Shown piece after piece: positions 10,711 to 15,949 of a DNA stretch of 64,000 nucleotides. The stretch is from the NCBI RefSeq assembly GCF_001969385.1, contig NZ_CP014796.1, positions 3,985,501 through 4,049,500 of the forward strand. Reading direction: 5' to 3'. The stretch's first letter is position 1; the number at the start of each line of letters is the position of its first letter. The position numbers were made by a program, and so were the translations under genes. Origin of the DNA: Salipiger profundus (lineage in GTDB: Bacteria; Pseudomonadota; Alphaproteobacteria; Rhodobacterales; Rhodobacteraceae). Below the pieces are notes generated by a model. It saw only the letters and a program-made list of their open reading frames with translations, did no database searches and had not been told where the DNA came from.

Positions 10711-10790
10711 CGCATCTCTCCTGCGGCGGGTTGTGAATTCTTGTCGTCCCGCCCTATCTAGGGGCGAAAGGCGACATGCGGAGGCGACCC

Positions 10791-11495
10791 TTGCAGATTC
10801 TCGTGGGGCTGGGCAATCCCGGCGGCAAATATGCGAAGAACCGGCACAACATCGGCTTCATGGCCGTGGACCGGATCGCCGAGGACCACGGCTTCGGCCC
10901 GTGGCGCTCGCGCTTTCAGGGCGAAGTGAGCGAGGGCCGGCTCGGCGGCGACAAGGTGCTGCTGCTGAAACCCGGCACCTACATGAACCTCTCGGGTCAG
11001 TCGGTCGGCGAGGCGATGCGCTTCTTCAAGCTCGAGCCCGGCGACGTCACCGTCTTTCACGACGAACTCGACCTCGCGCCGGGCAAGTGCCGGGTGAAGA
11101 TGGGCGGCGGTCATGCCGGCCACAACGGCCTGCGCTCGATGCACCAGCACATCGGCGAGGCCTACCGCCGCATCCGGCTGGGCATCGGTCATCCCGGTCG
11201 CAAGGAGGCGGTCGCGGGCTACGTGCTGCACGACTTCGGCAAGGCCGACGAGGACTGGCTCGACGACCTGTTGCGCGGGATCTCGGACGGTGCCGACGCG
11301 CTTATGCGCGGCGACACCAACGGCTTCCAGAACGCCGTCGCGCTCCGCGTGGCCCCTGCGCGGTCGTCGAAGACCACGAAGCCGGAGACAAAGGCCGATG
11401 TGCCGAAGCCCGCGGCGAAAGCGCCCGAGGCCGAGACCAAACCCGAGGACGACCAGCGCTCGCCGCTGCAGAAACTCGCCGACCGGTTCCGCTGA
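10791..11495 (+). CDS. pth: Peptidyl-tRNA hydrolase
   Basis: 234 residues. The enzyme frees tRNA from prematurely released peptidyl-tRNA. Family motifs are intact: ILVGLGNPG at the N-terminus, RHNIGF with the catalytic His, [19 protein letters not shown] and [12 protein letters not shown]. The TTG at 10791 is preferred because GGAGG lies at 10780-10784 with a 6-nt spacer and the conserved protein start follows directly; an in-frame ATG at 10776 is the alternative. The last 40 residues are a charged, Lys/Glu/Pro-rich tail common in alphaproteobacterial Pth. Confidence 0.95.
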
Positions 11496-11556
11496 GCCCG
11501 GCCCACTGGACAGCGCGCCGAGGGTTTGTCAGGCTCACCGCCCAAGGAGATGCGCC

Positions 11557-11928
11557 ATGATCCGCAAGGACCCCGCAGTCAACGTTCTCGGAGAGCCGCT
11601 TGTCGGCTGTTCCGCCGACCCGGTCACCGGCTTTTTCCGGGACGGTCATTGCAACACCTGCGCCGAAGATGCCGGCAGTCATACGGTCTGCGCGATCATG
11701 ACCGCCGAGTTCCTCGCCTACTCGGCCTATGTCGGCAACGACCTGTCGACGCCGCGCCCAGAGTTCCGCTTTCCGGGCCTGAAGCCCGGCGATCGCTGGT
11801 GCCTCTGTGCCGCGCGCTTTCTGCAGGCGCATGACGAGGGCTGCGCGCCCGACGTGGCGCTGGATGCGACCCACGTCCGTGCGCTCGAGATCGTGCCGAT
11901 GGACGTGCTCAAGAGCCACGCCGCCTGA
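11557..11928 (+). CDS. DUF2237 family protein
   Basis: 123 residues with the dense conserved pattern of this family: NVLGEPLVGCS, TGFFRDGHCNTC, HTVCAIMTAEFLAYS, GNDLSTPRPEFRFPGLKPGD and RWCLCAARFLQA, plus THVRALEIV. The several conserved Cys and His residues suggest metal binding, but no function is established. It follows pth by 61 nt on the same strand and may be cotranscribed. Confidence 0.85.
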   Translation: MIRKDPAVNVLGEPLVGCSADPVTGFFRDGHCNTCAEDAGSHTVCAIMTAEFLAYSAYVGNDLSTPRPEFRFPGLKPGDRWCLCAARFLQAHDEGCAPDVALDATHVRALEIVPMDVLKSHAA

Positions 11929-11946: not shown

Positions 11947-12825
11947 TCAGGCCCGCGCCATGCGGCGTCCCGGCAGCGCCTCGTCGAAGATCAGCCACAT
12001 GCCAGAGCCCACCACGAGCATCACGCCCACGAGGGTGCCCGCGGTCGGAAGCTCGCCGAAGCCCCACCAGCCGATCGCGACCATCCAGACGAACTGCAGG
12101 TTCATCAGCGGGGTTGCGACGTAGGCCGGCAGCAGCCGCAGCGCCTCGACCGAGAGCCAGCGCGCGGCAAACAGAAAGACGGCATACCCCGCGACCCAGC
12201 CAAGATCGGCAAGCGGCATCGGCGTCCAGACGAACGGCAGCGCCGCGGCCATCACGAGCATGACCGCGAGGTTCGGCCAGAACACCTGCGCGAGCGGGAC
12301 CCGCTCGATCCGCGCGATGCGACGCGCGGCCACCATCGAGCCGGTCCCCGTCAGCGCGGCAAAGAGCGCCCAGAGATGGCCCGCGTCGAGCGACAGCCGC
12401 CCCGCCGGCATCAGGCAAAGCACGCCGCCCGCACCGAGCAGTAGCGCGGTCCAGGTCGCTGGCCGCACGCGCTCGCCCAGCACCGGTCCCGACAGCGCCG
12501 CCGCGATCAGCGGCATGAGCGCGATGAAGACGAAGACATCCGCGAAGGGCAGCAGCCGGAACGCCTGGAAGAAACCGATGGCGGCACAGACCGTCAGCAC
12601 CGCCCGCACCGCCATGGTGCCGGGAGACCGCGTCGAAAGCCCCGCGCCCTGCCCCCGCGCCGCGAGCAGCGACAGCGCGATGACAAGCCCCGAGGACAGC
12701 GCGAAGAGCTGCGGCGCCGCGTAGCCTCCGGCGATCAGCTTGGTGATCCCGTCCGCCGCCGCGATGGCGCCGGTATAGAGCGCGACGAGCGCGGCGCCCG
12801 TCAGTGCGGCCCTTCGTGTGTTCAT
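11947..12825 (-). CDS. DMT-superfamily (EamA) transporter, putative exporter of the repeat-protein locus
   Basis: 292 residues with ten predicted membrane helices arranged as two EamA halves (first half ends near LCLMPAGRLSL; second half contains WPNLAVMLVMAAALPF and PLMNLQFVWMVAIGWWGFGE). EamA proteins usually export amino acids or small metabolites. Its ATG overlaps the stop of the 353-residue gene by 4 nt, so the two are translationally coupled and the exporter is a third member of the repeat-protein operon. Substrate unknown. Confidence 0.85.
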   Translation of the reverse strand: MNTRRAALTGAALVALYTGAIAAADGITKLIAGGYAAPQLFALSSGLVIALSLLAARGQGAGLSTRSPGTMAVRAVLTVCAAIGFFQAFRLLPFADVFVFIALMPLIAAALSGPVLGERVRPATWTALLLGAGGVLCLMPAGRLSLDAGHLWALFAALTGTGSMVAARRIARIERVPLAQVFWPNLAVMLVMAAALPFVWTPMPLADLGWVAGYAVFLFAARWLSVEALRLLPAYVATPLMNLQFVWMVAIGWWGFGELPTAGTLVGVMLVVGSGMWLIFDEALPGRRMARA

Positions 12826-13883
12826 GGCCGACCTGCCCGGGCGAAGCCCTGGAAGAACGCATCGAAATGGGCGGACTGGTCGGCCAGCGCATCGACGATA
12901 TCGCGGGTTAGCGGCGAGAGCCGTGCGCCCAGCCGGGCGCGGGTTGCCTCCCAGTCGGGACGGCGTTCGCTGCCCTCGGCGAACAGCGCCTCGGAGAGTT
13001 CGCGCAGCGGGGCCACCTGCCGGTCGGCGCGCGAGAAGCGCATCCGCGAGGCCACCAGCGGCTTGCGGAACGGCGCGTTGCCGATGGTGGCCGCGTGCCA
13101 GTTGCAGACGAGGAAATCGTGGTAGTCGTCGGCGATCGCCACATCGTCGCCCCCCTCGACCTCGAAGAGATGTGTCTCGCGCTCGAGCCAGCCGGTCCAG
13201 AGCGCCGGGGCGGTTTCGCCCGCGTGATGGAGGGCGATGCAGATCTCGGCCAGCAGGTCCGAGTTCTGCTCAAGAAATGCGAGGTTGCCGGCGAAATGCA
13301 GGCTGGTGATGGCATCCCGGTCAAGTCCGGGGTCGCGCCGCCCGTATTCGCTGAGGTAGAAGACGATATGTGTCAGTTCGTAGGCGGCTTTCTTGTTCGG
13401 CAGCGCGAAGGTCGCCGACCGCGCGCAGAACCGGCGCAGCCGCTCGACGAGGTCGGGCTCTGCCGGACCCGCCGCGCCACGGCGCGCAAGCAGCCGGATT
13501 GCCTCCATTCGCTGCAGATCCGAGAGCTCCTGTTCCGCGAGGCCCTGCCGCGCCACCTGTTGCGCCAGCCGCGCGCCGGTGTCGCCGGGCATCCCGAGGT
13601 CCTCGAGATCCAGCGTCATCGACAGCAGGAAGCGGTAATACTGCGGGAAGAAGGCCATGCGGTCCTCGACAGTGTCGTAGAAACCATCCAGGACGTCGAG
13701 CGCCGTGCCGGGCACATCGGCCCCCGTGCACTCGAGGATGTTGAGAAGCTCGGCGTTCTCCTTGAGCCAGAACACGTCATCCTCGCGGCGCCTGCAGGTC
13801 GCGAAGCAGCTGAGCAGAGCGGCCGCGCCGGTTTCGGGCGTGGCGATGCGGGTCTTCGGGCTGAGCGCGATAACGTTGGTCAT
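12822..13883 (-). CDS. Uncharacterised 353-residue helical protein linked to the FTSGA-repeat gene
   Basis: I do not recognise a characterised family. The sequence is almost entirely alpha-helical and has no signal peptide or membrane segment, so it is probably cytosolic. Around residues 165-185 the phrase KKAAYELTHIVFYLSEYGRRD is followed at 190-215 by LHFAGNLAFLEQNSDLLAEICIALHHAGET. THxVFY..(D/E)YG patterns remind me of alpha/alpha-toroid proteins of some Streptomyces families, a resemblance from memory only. Conserved-looking His pairs (TH, HH, YHDF, WHAA) could bind metal. It lies between the repeat protein (74-nt gap with a strong hairpin) and the exporter (4-nt overlap). A modifying or maturation role for the repeat protein is an inference. 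Confidence 0.7.
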   Translation of the reverse strand: MTNVIALSPKTRIATPETGAAALLSCFATCRRREDDVFWLKENAELLNILECTGADVPGTALDVLDGFYDTVEDRMAFFPQYYRFLLSMTLDLEDLGMPGDTGARLAQQVARQGLAEQELSDLQRMEAIRLLARRGAAGPAEPDLVERLRRFCARSATFALPNKKAAYELTHIVFYLSEYGRRDPGLDRDAITSLHFAGNLAFLEQNSDLLAEICIALHHAGETAPALWTGWLERETHLFEVEGGDDVAIADDYHDFLVCNWHAATIGNAPFRKPLVASRMRFSRADRQVAPLRELSEALFAEGSERRPDWEATRARLGARLSPLTRDIVDALADQSAHFDAFFQGFARAGRP

Positions 13884-13908
13884 TCTGGCCTCTCCTGTCC
13901 TTTCGCGC

Positions 13909-13936
13909 GCGGGCGTCTCATCCCCAAGACGCCCGC
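13909..13936 (-). terminator. Intercistronic hairpin between the repeat gene and the helical-protein gene
   Basis: A perfect 10-bp stem, GCGGGCGTCT (13909-13918) with AGACGCCCGC (13927-13936), has an 8-nt loop and no T-run on the minus strand. Such a hairpin can protect or partly terminate the upstream message, allowing the repeat gene to be expressed above its downstream partners. Confidence 0.55.
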
Positions 13937-13957
13937 TGCAATGTCATCCGGCGGCGA

Positions 13958-14845
13958 TCACGCGCCGGAGGTGAAAAGGCCGGTAGCCTCGCCGGCTGCG
14001 GCACGGGTCGCCTGCGGTGCGGCACCCGAGGTGAAGGCACCCGTGGCCTCGCCTGCTGTCACGTCCGAGCGGGTCGGCGCGGCGCCGGAGGTGAAGAGCT
14101 CGACCGCGTCGCCGCGCATCGCTTCGCTGCTGGTCGGCGCGGCACCCGAGGTGAAGGCGCCCGTGGCCTCGCCTGCGGTCACGTCCGAGCGGGTCGGCGC
14201 GGCGCCGGAGGTGAACAGCTCGACCGCGTCGCCGCGCATCGCTTCGCTGGTGGTCGGTGCGGCACCCGAGGTGAAGGCACCCGTGGCCTCGCCCGCGGTC
14301 ACGTCCGAGCGGGTCGGCGCGGCGCCGGAGGTGAAGAGCTCGACCGCGTCGCCGCGCATCGCTTCGCTGGTGGTCGGTGCGGCACCCGAGGTGAAGGCAC
14401 CGGTGGCCTCGCCTGCGGTCACGTCCGAGCGGGTCGGCGCGGCGCCGGAGGTGAACAGCTCGACCGCGTCGCCGCGCATCGCTTCGCTGGTGGTCGGTGC
14501 GGCACCCGAGGTGAAGGCGCCCGTGGCCTCGCCTGCGGTCACGTCCGAGCGGGACGGTGCGGCGCCGGAGGTGAACAGCTCGACCGCGTCGCCGCGCATA
14601 GCTTCGCTGGTGGTCGGTGCGGCACCCGAGGTGAACAGGCCCACGGCCTCGCCGAGTGCGGTTTCGGTCCGACGCGGCGCGGCACCCGAGGTGAAGAGCG
14701 CCATGCCATCGCCCATCAGCGTATCGGCCGAGCTGGTCGGTGCGGCACCGGAGGTGAACATCTCGCAGCCATCTCCGCCGAACAGATCGGCGCCGCGAGT
14801 ATCAACGAAATCTTCAGAAATCAGCTGCTTGAATTGAGCGGTCAT
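13958..14845 (-). CDS. Repetitive FTSGA protein, possible multi-core precursor peptide
   Basis: 295 residues from ATG 14845 with AAAGGGG 6 nt upstream; a start 14 codons earlier is possible but has no such site. A 29-residue N-terminal segment (MTAQFKQLISEDFVDTRGAD, then a GGDGCEM end with the only Cys) precedes 14 copies of FTSGA(AP). Copies are spaced 20 residues apart, 21 for the first. Units alternate between two types, FTSGAAPTTSEAMRGDAVEL and FTSGAAPTRSDVTAGEATGA, and the protein ends exactly after a final FTSGA. Apart from the leader it has no Cys, His, Lys, Trp or Tyr, and there is no membrane segment or Sec signal. Third-position GC is very high on this strand, supporting coding. Function unknown; leader plus repeated core resembles multi-core peptide precursors, but a structural or disordered protein is equally possible. 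Confidence 0.75.
   Translation of the reverse strand: MTAQFKQLISEDFVDTRGADLFGGDGCEMFTSGAAPTSSADTLMGDGMALFTSGAAPRRTETALGEAVGLFTSGAAPTTSEAMRGDAVELFTSGAAPSRSDVTAGEATGAFTSGAAPTTSEAMRGDAVELFTSGAAPTRSDVTAGEATGAFTSGAAPTTSEAMRGDAVELFTSGAAPTRSDVTAGEATGAFTSGAAPTTSEAMRGDAVELFTSGAAPTRSDVTAGEATGAFTSGAAPTSSEAMRGDAVELFTSGAAPTRSDVTAGEATGAFTSGAAPQATRAAAGEATGLFTSGA
14036..14635. repeat. Five tandem 120-bp units inside the FTSGA gene
   Basis: Ten consecutive 20-codon units fall into five nearly identical 120-bp copies, differing by a handful of mostly silent changes (for example Ser/Thr variants at two positions). The wider, diverged 60-bp periodicity extends from 13961 to 14758. The regular length and high identity point to recent unequal expansion, so copy number is likely to vary between strains. 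Confidence 0.95.
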
Positions 14846-14921
14846 CGGGAACCCCTTTACTGTTTGATCCTGCCCTTTCGGCACCAACAGGGTTTCCTCT
14901 TGCGGCTGTTTCTGACAATAT

Positions 14922-14984
14922 AGTTTCTTGCTAAGGTTGAGTTATACACGAGTTACCCACACGCAGAGAGACTGACAAGAAACT
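14922..14984 (-). promoter_or_regulatory. Structured upstream region of the FTSGA operon
   Basis: The 321-bp gap 14846-15166 is markedly more AT-rich than its surroundings and holds no gene. It contains a perfect 9-bp inverted repeat, AGTTTCTTG (14922-14930) and CAAGAAACT (14976-14984), 54 bp apart centre to centre. Between the arms are TTATACACG (14942-14950) and TTACCCACA (14953-14961). No strong -35/-10 pair is obvious; TATAAC and TATATT hexamers on the minus strand are possible -10 elements. Confidence 0.4.
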
Positions 14985-15166
14985 GAAACTCCGAGCCTAA
15001 ACTGAATAATTCACAGAATAAAAATTTCTGTGGATAGTTTTTCTGCGCCCATTGATCACCGGCCAGACCTCCGATAGACAGCCCGAATCGCCGGCGAATC
15101 CAGAGCGCGCCCTTGCCCCCCGGCGGCGCCTGAGCGATAGCGGGGCCAGCTTGACGGAGGGCCCAA

Positions 15167-15949
15167 ATGAAGATCGCGACCTTCAACATCAACGGCATCA
15201 AGGCGCGGATCTCCGCGCTGACGGACTGGCTCGAAGAGGCCCAGCCCGACGTGGTTCTCCTGCAGGAAATCAAGTCGGTGGATGAGGCCTTCCCCCGAGA
15301 GGCCCTCGAAGACCTCGGCTACCAGGTCGAAACGCACGGTCAGAAAAGCTTCAACGGCGTCGGCATCCTGTCGAAGCTGCCGCTCGAGGACGTCACGCGC
15401 GGCCTGCCGGGCGACGACAGCGACGAGCAGGCCCGCTGGATAGAGGCCACCGTCGTCGGCGAGCATCACGCGCTGCGGCTCTGCGGGCTCTACCTGCCAA
15501 ACGGCAACCCGGCACCGGGCCCGAAGTACGACTACAAGCTCGCCTGGATGGCCCGGATGGAAGAGCGGGCCCGCGCCCTGCTGGCCGAGGAGATGCCGGC
15601 GCTCATGGCGGGCGACTACAACGTCATCCCGCAGGCCGAGGACGCCGCGAAACCGGAGGCCTGGACCGAGGACGCGCTGTTCCTGCCCGAGACGCGGGCT
15701 GCCTTCCGGCGGATCGTGAACCTCGGCTTCACAGAGGCGTTCCGGGCGCGCCATCCCGGTCCCGGGCATTATTCCTTCTGGGACTACCAGGCCGGTGCGT
15801 GGCAGCGGAACAACGGCATCCGCATCGACCATTTCCTGCTCAGCCCGCAGGCCGCCGACCTGATGACCGACGTGCAGATCGATCGCGACATCCGTGGTCG
15901 CGAAAAGCCCTCGGACCACGTGCCGGTCTGGGTCGACCTCGCGCTCTGA
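15167..15949 (+). CDS. xthA: Exodeoxyribonuclease III
   Basis: 260 residues, the normal length. It cleaves at abasic sites and removes 3' blocks in base excision repair. Signature motifs are ATFNINGIKAR (metal-binding Asn), VVLLQEIKS (catalytic Glu), LYLPNGNP, GDYNVIP, YSFWDYQAGAW, RIDHFLLS and the terminal KPSDHVPVWVDL with the catalytic Asp-His pair. It stands alone with about 320 nt of non-coding DNA upstream. Confidence 0.95.
   Translation: MKIATFNINGIKARISALTDWLEEAQPDVVLLQEIKSVDEAFPREALEDLGYQVETHGQKSFNGVGILSKLPLEDVTRGLPGDDSDEQARWIEATVVGEHHALRLCGLYLPNGNPAPGPKYDYKLAWMARMEERARALLAEEMPALMAGDYNVIPQAEDAAKPEAWTEDALFLPETRAAFRRIVNLGFTEAFRARHPGPGHYSFWDYQAGAWQRNNGIRIDHFLLSPQAADLMTDVQIDRDIRGREKPSDHVPVWVDLAL

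Follow-up and report, generated by a model that had tools for sequence, protein, structure and literature searches.

Precursors with more than one core are known among the ribosomally synthesized and post-translationally modified peptides (RiPPs). In the dikaritins, borosins and cyanobactins, the precursor has a leader and then a series of short cores, repeated and separated by spacers. The FxSxx-COOH peptides have a radical S-adenosylmethionine (SAM) enzyme, FxsB, as their partner. The title of a paper by Shi et al. (ACS Catal. 2026) names DUF6895 as a lasso-peptide epimerase family. The report on MslH, the epimerase of the lasso peptide MS-271, describes two His/Asp pairs for acid/base epimerization of a ribosomal peptide and a calcineurin-like fold with Ca(II) (PMC10406935). 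Here we consider a 64,000-nt stretch of the marine bacterium Salipiger profundus (family Rhodobacteraceae; contig NZ_CP014796.1, positions 3,985,501 to 4,049,500), hereafter the window, and in it a unit of genes for a repeat protein, a DUF6902 protein and an EamA transporter. On balance, we think that this locus makes a multi-core precursor peptide together with its maturation enzyme, which we predict to be a peptide epimerase. The unit is best read as a multi-core peptide system of two genes, and often of three, that works like a multi-core RiPP locus.

The gene for the multi-core repeat protein lies at 13958..14845 on the minus strand, with its start ATG at 14845. Its 295-residue product consists, in translation, of a 29-residue leader (14759..14845, minus strand; MTAQFK...) and 14 FTSGA cores, each with the F-T-S-G motif, the first core Phe being residue 30. 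Thus, a short leader and repeated cores are found in one precursor, as in a multi-core RiPP locus. The cores are mostly 20-21 residues apart, and the final one (13961..13975, minus strand) forms the exact C-terminus of the protein. An earlier note on this DNA had described the repeat as FTSGA(AP). The leader and the 14 copies of FTSGA are as it described, but the last copy is without AP, and FTSGA is therefore the invariant unit. Since Tandem Repeats Finder gives the repeat gene a score of 1158 (120-bp period, 5.2 copies, 96% match), the array is not a product of chance. The protein has no His and a single Lys, which is in the leader; in 62 of the 74 relatives scored, the first Lys of the leader is at position 6. 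A search of NCBIfam with the precursor gave 0 families at E<=1. Its Pfam matches were all under their cut-offs and no stretch passed on its own in PHROGs, and we take the matches in both databases as composition noise.

The next gene (12822..13883, minus strand) encodes a 353-residue protein that had previously been left unassigned. It belongs to the Pfam family PF21843 DUF6902 (E 1.2e-155) and it also reaches PF21836 DUF6895 (E 1.4e-22, 80.8 bits with the cut-off at 23.8), with weak matches in reciprocal searches between the two families. By sequence, DUF6902 can be placed in the DUF6895 superfamily. Pfam gives a function to neither family. In our literature search for the family names, DUF6902, PF21843 and PF21836 were unmentioned and DUF6895 occurred only in one reference title. 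H172, D209, E213 and H255 are common to all 11 DUF6902 and all 9 DUF6895 rows that were aligned, and these four residues may have a catalytic role. In one DUF6895 protein read by eye (L154), the His and acidic residues are kept and Tyr 254 is not. We predict that the DUF6902 protein is a peptide-modifying enzyme, likely an epimerase. Its predicted structure is nearly all helical. Foldseek with this model found no match at E<=0.001, and a sequence search of the PDB gave nothing at E<=1. A plasmid search with DUF6902 gave nothing at E<=0.01. Of the eight matches from another plasmid search, six were inspected (all but H2 and H6).

The repeat gene and DUF6902 are closely paired. We sampled 80 loci from named records (the best 80 of 294 relatives) and 198 genomes of the family, 55 of which have DUF6902. 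A repeat open reading frame was found just upstream of DUF6902 on the same strand in 76 of the 80 loci by script and in three more by inspection of the reading frames, the latter with cores FISWS, FTCGL and FTNWC. The earlier note had staked its proposal on the two genes occurring together in other genomes, and this they do: they adjoin in 79 of 79 testable loci, the remaining locus (L110) having only 88 nt of upstream sequence. A profile made from 31 repeat tails matches in 50 of the 55 DUF6902 genomes and in none of the 143 others, as judged by reading both lists side by side. Because this profile was built from repeats beside DUF6902, unlike cores would escape it, as three two-copy forms did; arrays visible to the profile are thus absent from the sampled genomes without DUF6902. 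The five genomes it misses are three with such short two-copy forms just upstream of DUF6902 (G041, G174 and G099), one where a contig end cuts the locus (G139) and one without a repeat gene (G039). Counting the three two-copy forms, which were read by eye, the pairing holds in 53 of 54 testable DUF6902 genomes. G039 (L127) has the sole testable DUF6902 without a repeat gene among the 55. Its DUF6902 is changed at the sites conserved in the superfamily (H172->Q, D209->L, E213->R, Y254->L and H255->T). In this single case, the loss of the repeat partner and the loss of the conserved residues coincide.

Some loci of the samples deserve separate mention. G027 and G053 each have repeat-profile matches on a second contig (C6 and C31) besides the DUF6902 contig, from either a split assembly or a second array. 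One contig (L093) is labelled Enemella evansiae (Actinomycetota), its locus groups with Roseobacter-type sequences, and it is probably a mislabelled or mixed assembly. Two more distant DUF6902 loci (L152 and L153) have STSSF-type repeats just upstream. Outside DUF6902, a small gene stands directly upstream of DUF6895 in six of the ten loci examined (L124, L125, L132, L133, L134 and L150). These loci come from other groups and phyla and the small genes loosely share a motif, which is present in two copies at L125 and L150. They are possibly further precursor families.

The core is uniform within a protein and varied between species. We distinguish 20 core types in 80 rows, of which 79 are loci and one is the window. 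On the DUF6902 tree the core type changes 25 times, compared with 53.5 for shuffled labels. On average, 94% of the copies in a protein are of its commonest core, and 57 of 75 proteins contain no other (a count that leaves out L037). Codon differences between copies leave the residue unchanged in 96-98% of cases at core positions +1 to +4, in a count that covers 72 of 77 proteins (five with N stretches or fewer than four units were dropped) and pools copies from one protein, which are not independent. The synonymous share is 67% at core position 0, which can hold residues other than F. It is 12-39% at 13 of the 16 positions that flank the core, and the exceptions are the Gly at -6 (99%), the residue at +5 (57%) and a Pro at +6 (81%). 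Since the codon differences at +1 to +4 are nearly all synonymous, the uniformity of the core is not merely the result of recent DNA duplication. The core, rather than the spacer, is under selection and appears to be the functional unit. Some blocks are near-identical tandem DNA, as would be expected if the array were a drifting low-complexity repeat without a core function that is homogenized by recombination. However, homogenization alone would level the synonymous sites too, and here the core codons differ though the residues hardly do. Nor did the profile find arrays apart from DUF6902 in the sampled genomes, and we give this explanation almost no credence.

Whole arrays also switch together. 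L094 has six copies of FSSGS and L101 has seven of FTSGS, so that every copy has switched, though the leaders are nearly the same and three spacers are identical. The two are close relatives, with 16 differences over the 357 residues of DUF6902, and the codons at the switched core position vary in L094. Some precursors combine two cores or a mixture of them, namely those of L087 (FCSWS/FSSLS), L105 (FTSGS/FTTSA) and L131 (FTTGL/FTTSC), and in L087 and L105 each of the two cores recurs. The protein ends exactly on its commonest core in 50 of 75 cases, including all 37 of the FTSGS, FTSGL and FTSGA types, and in none of the 20 SWS-type proteins, most of which have a short tail past the last core.

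The number and spacing of the cores bear on what the array might be. The commonest core is present in 4-20 copies in 74 of 77 proteins (the other three were left out for N stretches), and precursors overall range from 2 to 20 copies of a pentapeptide core. Spacings of 20 or 21 residues predominate, and spacings of 8, 13 or 17 occur in 14 of 74 proteins. A mostly regular period, and an AlphaFold2 model of the repeat protein with two strands per repeat, might suggest a beta-solenoid or amyloid-like surface protein, for which DUF6902 would be the chaperone. The earlier note had likewise offered an unmodified structural polymer as its alternative. We consider such a polymer very unlikely, because of these other spacings and the existence of two-copy forms, and the model itself is of low confidence (predicted local distance difference test score, pLDDT, 55.8). 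A second possibility is that the cores are unmodified short motifs that dock on DUF6902 or another receptor as a multivalent scaffold. A single binding pocket would keep the cores uniform within a protein and still allow variation between species and a variable copy number and spacing, and the 73 residues that are invariant across 46 DUF6902 sequences would suit a binding groove as well. On the other side, two copies suffice, DUF6895 relatives pair with differently composed small genes in other phyla, and the kinship to a reported epimerase family favors catalysis. We regard docking of this kind as unlikely, though it deserves attention.

For the multi-core precursor and its enzyme, we suggest the following mechanism. 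DUF6902 would bind the precursor by its leader, by the G-(D/E)-x-x-x-(M/L/A) stretch that precedes every core, or by both, and would then alter each core. The likeliest chemistry would be acid/base epimerization of one core residue to give a D-amino acid, because DUF6902 is remotely homologous to DUF6895 and a pair of His and a pair of acidic residues are conserved in the superfamily. Once freed by a host protease, the units could serve as a small peptide specific to the strain, for which EamA would be the exporter in the loci that have it. DUF6902 could also act on a multi-core precursor with another chemistry, such as cyclization or a prenyl-type transfer, since the fold of its model resembles what we take to be the alpha/alpha toroids. 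This match is of low significance and silent on chemistry, a point that we count against our preferred mechanism. We hold a different chemistry of this kind to be quite improbable.

Further points weigh against the mechanism we prefer. The kinship between DUF6902 and DUF6895 is remote, and the chemistry may differ. The link to the reported DUF6895 epimerase consists of homology and a paper title. Both the epimerase activity and the RiPP status are predictions. At four of the ten DUF6895 loci (L135, L136, L137 and L154), the upstream genes do not directly fit the small-gene pattern. Some copies depart from the commonest core in 18 of 75 proteins. Among the neighbor clusters shown, not all of which are assigned, no protease gene was recognized nearby.

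The third gene of the unit in the window (11947..12825, minus strand) encodes a 292-residue EamA (DMT) transporter (Pfam EamA 2e-14) and overlaps the DUF6902 gene by 4 nt, as had been noticed earlier. EamA follows DUF6902 in 64 of the 80 loci and no match was found in the other 16, and it is thus a common but dispensable member. These 16 are a Marivita group of 15 rows, in which an erpA-like gene comes closely after DUF6902, and L039. The modified-peptide layout put forward in the earlier note is supported in part, by the pairing, the core selection, the core switching and the DUF6895 homology, though not in treating the exporter as a constant part.

The unit occupies a fixed locus. It is flanked by a divergent gene outside the unit (15167..15949, plus strand) that resembles exonuclease III (xth). 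We use xth, erpA and dgt as provisional names, given from the look of the sequences. Such an exonuclease-like gene is present in 75 of the 80 loci, and in the remaining five the sequence upstream extends for no more than 1,019 nt. In 11 of 12 genomes without DUF6902 (12 of the 143), one short stretch carries both the exonuclease gene and the erpA-like gene, with 36 to ~1,350 nt between them. The gap is at most ~440 nt in five of these, which show an empty version of the site, and longer gaps could hold other genes. On the other flank, 65 of the 80 relatives have an erpA/dgt-like pair. In the window, the region beyond EamA (10776-11928) holds what are presumably pth- and DUF2237-like genes, and this downstream flank seems to be rearranged.

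Upstream of the repeat gene there are two DnaA-box-like sites, each with one mismatch: CTATCCACA (15029..15037, minus strand), which starts 195 nt ahead of the final base of the ATG, and TTACCCACA (14953..14961, plus strand), starting 119 nt before it. Our scan covered 75 of 81 intergenic regions (six were dropped; that of the window is 14846-15166) and found 152 sites within one mismatch of TTATCCACA, compared with a mean of 5.6 in shuffles that preserved base composition only. At least one site is present in 63 of the 75 regions, and most sites start at near-constant distances of ~190, ~168 and ~115 nt, counted back from the last base of the start codon. The 12 box-free regions comprise four of the Alloyangia/S. 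mangrovisoli group and eight of the FTSGL/FVSGL group. No box with up to one mismatch was found in the 450 bp beside xth in 12 genomes that lack the unit (the first listed of the 143), and the putative boxes therefore seem to be part of the unit. The same DnaA box is used for locating origins in PMC6699656. A chromosome origin as the cause of the boxes is disfavored, given the 12 unit-free genomes and no clear skew switch in the window. The sites suggest that expression of the unit may be linked to the cell cycle.

The repeated peptide, probably modified and with a sequence that varies by species, seems to be of a kind not yet described. A bolder proposal, which we put forward tentatively and hold to be somewhat doubtful, is that marine bacteria of the Roseobacter group make ribosomal peptides of a new class. 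One precursor would be cut into many identical pentapeptides, each with a D-amino acid introduced by the epimerase DUF6902. Their cores switch together between close species, as would be expected of a signal specific to the strain, and their expression would be coupled to DnaA. If the locus is the predicted precursor and epimerase, DUF6902, which is present in more than a quarter of the sampled family genomes (55 of 198), gains a function, and a barely described epimerase superfamily extends from lasso peptides to multi-core precursors. The lock-step change of cores between close species is a natural experiment in the joint evolution of repeated peptides and their reader.

Among the described systems, a defence system was considered and rejected, with no PADLOC match at E<=0.1. 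The FxSxx-COOH peptides are similar in that FTSGA at a free C-terminus matches the letters FxSxx, but they differ in their partner. No FxsB-type radical SAM enzyme was over the cut-off in any of 41 genomes and there was no match in the genome of the window itself; matches under the cut-off occur in 18 of the 41 and likewise in 11 of 14 control genomes. The precursor also has no match to an NCBIfam model. DUF6895, the reported lasso-peptide epimerase family, is closer, sharing homology, the same His/acid residues and a gene order in which it follows a small gene in most of the loci examined. It differs in that the partner of DUF6902 is a many-copy precursor; no lasso cyclase genes were noticed beside DUF6902, though no genome-wide search for them was made. 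The His/Asp pairs of MslH may parallel the two His and two acidic residues of DUF6902, whereas the calcineurin-like fold of MslH with Ca(II) is unlike the nearly all-helical DUF6902 model. Finally, the multi-core RiPP precursors share with this locus the leader, the repeated short cores and the spacers, and what sets the locus apart is its enzyme, which differs from theirs, and the change of its cores in concert between close species.
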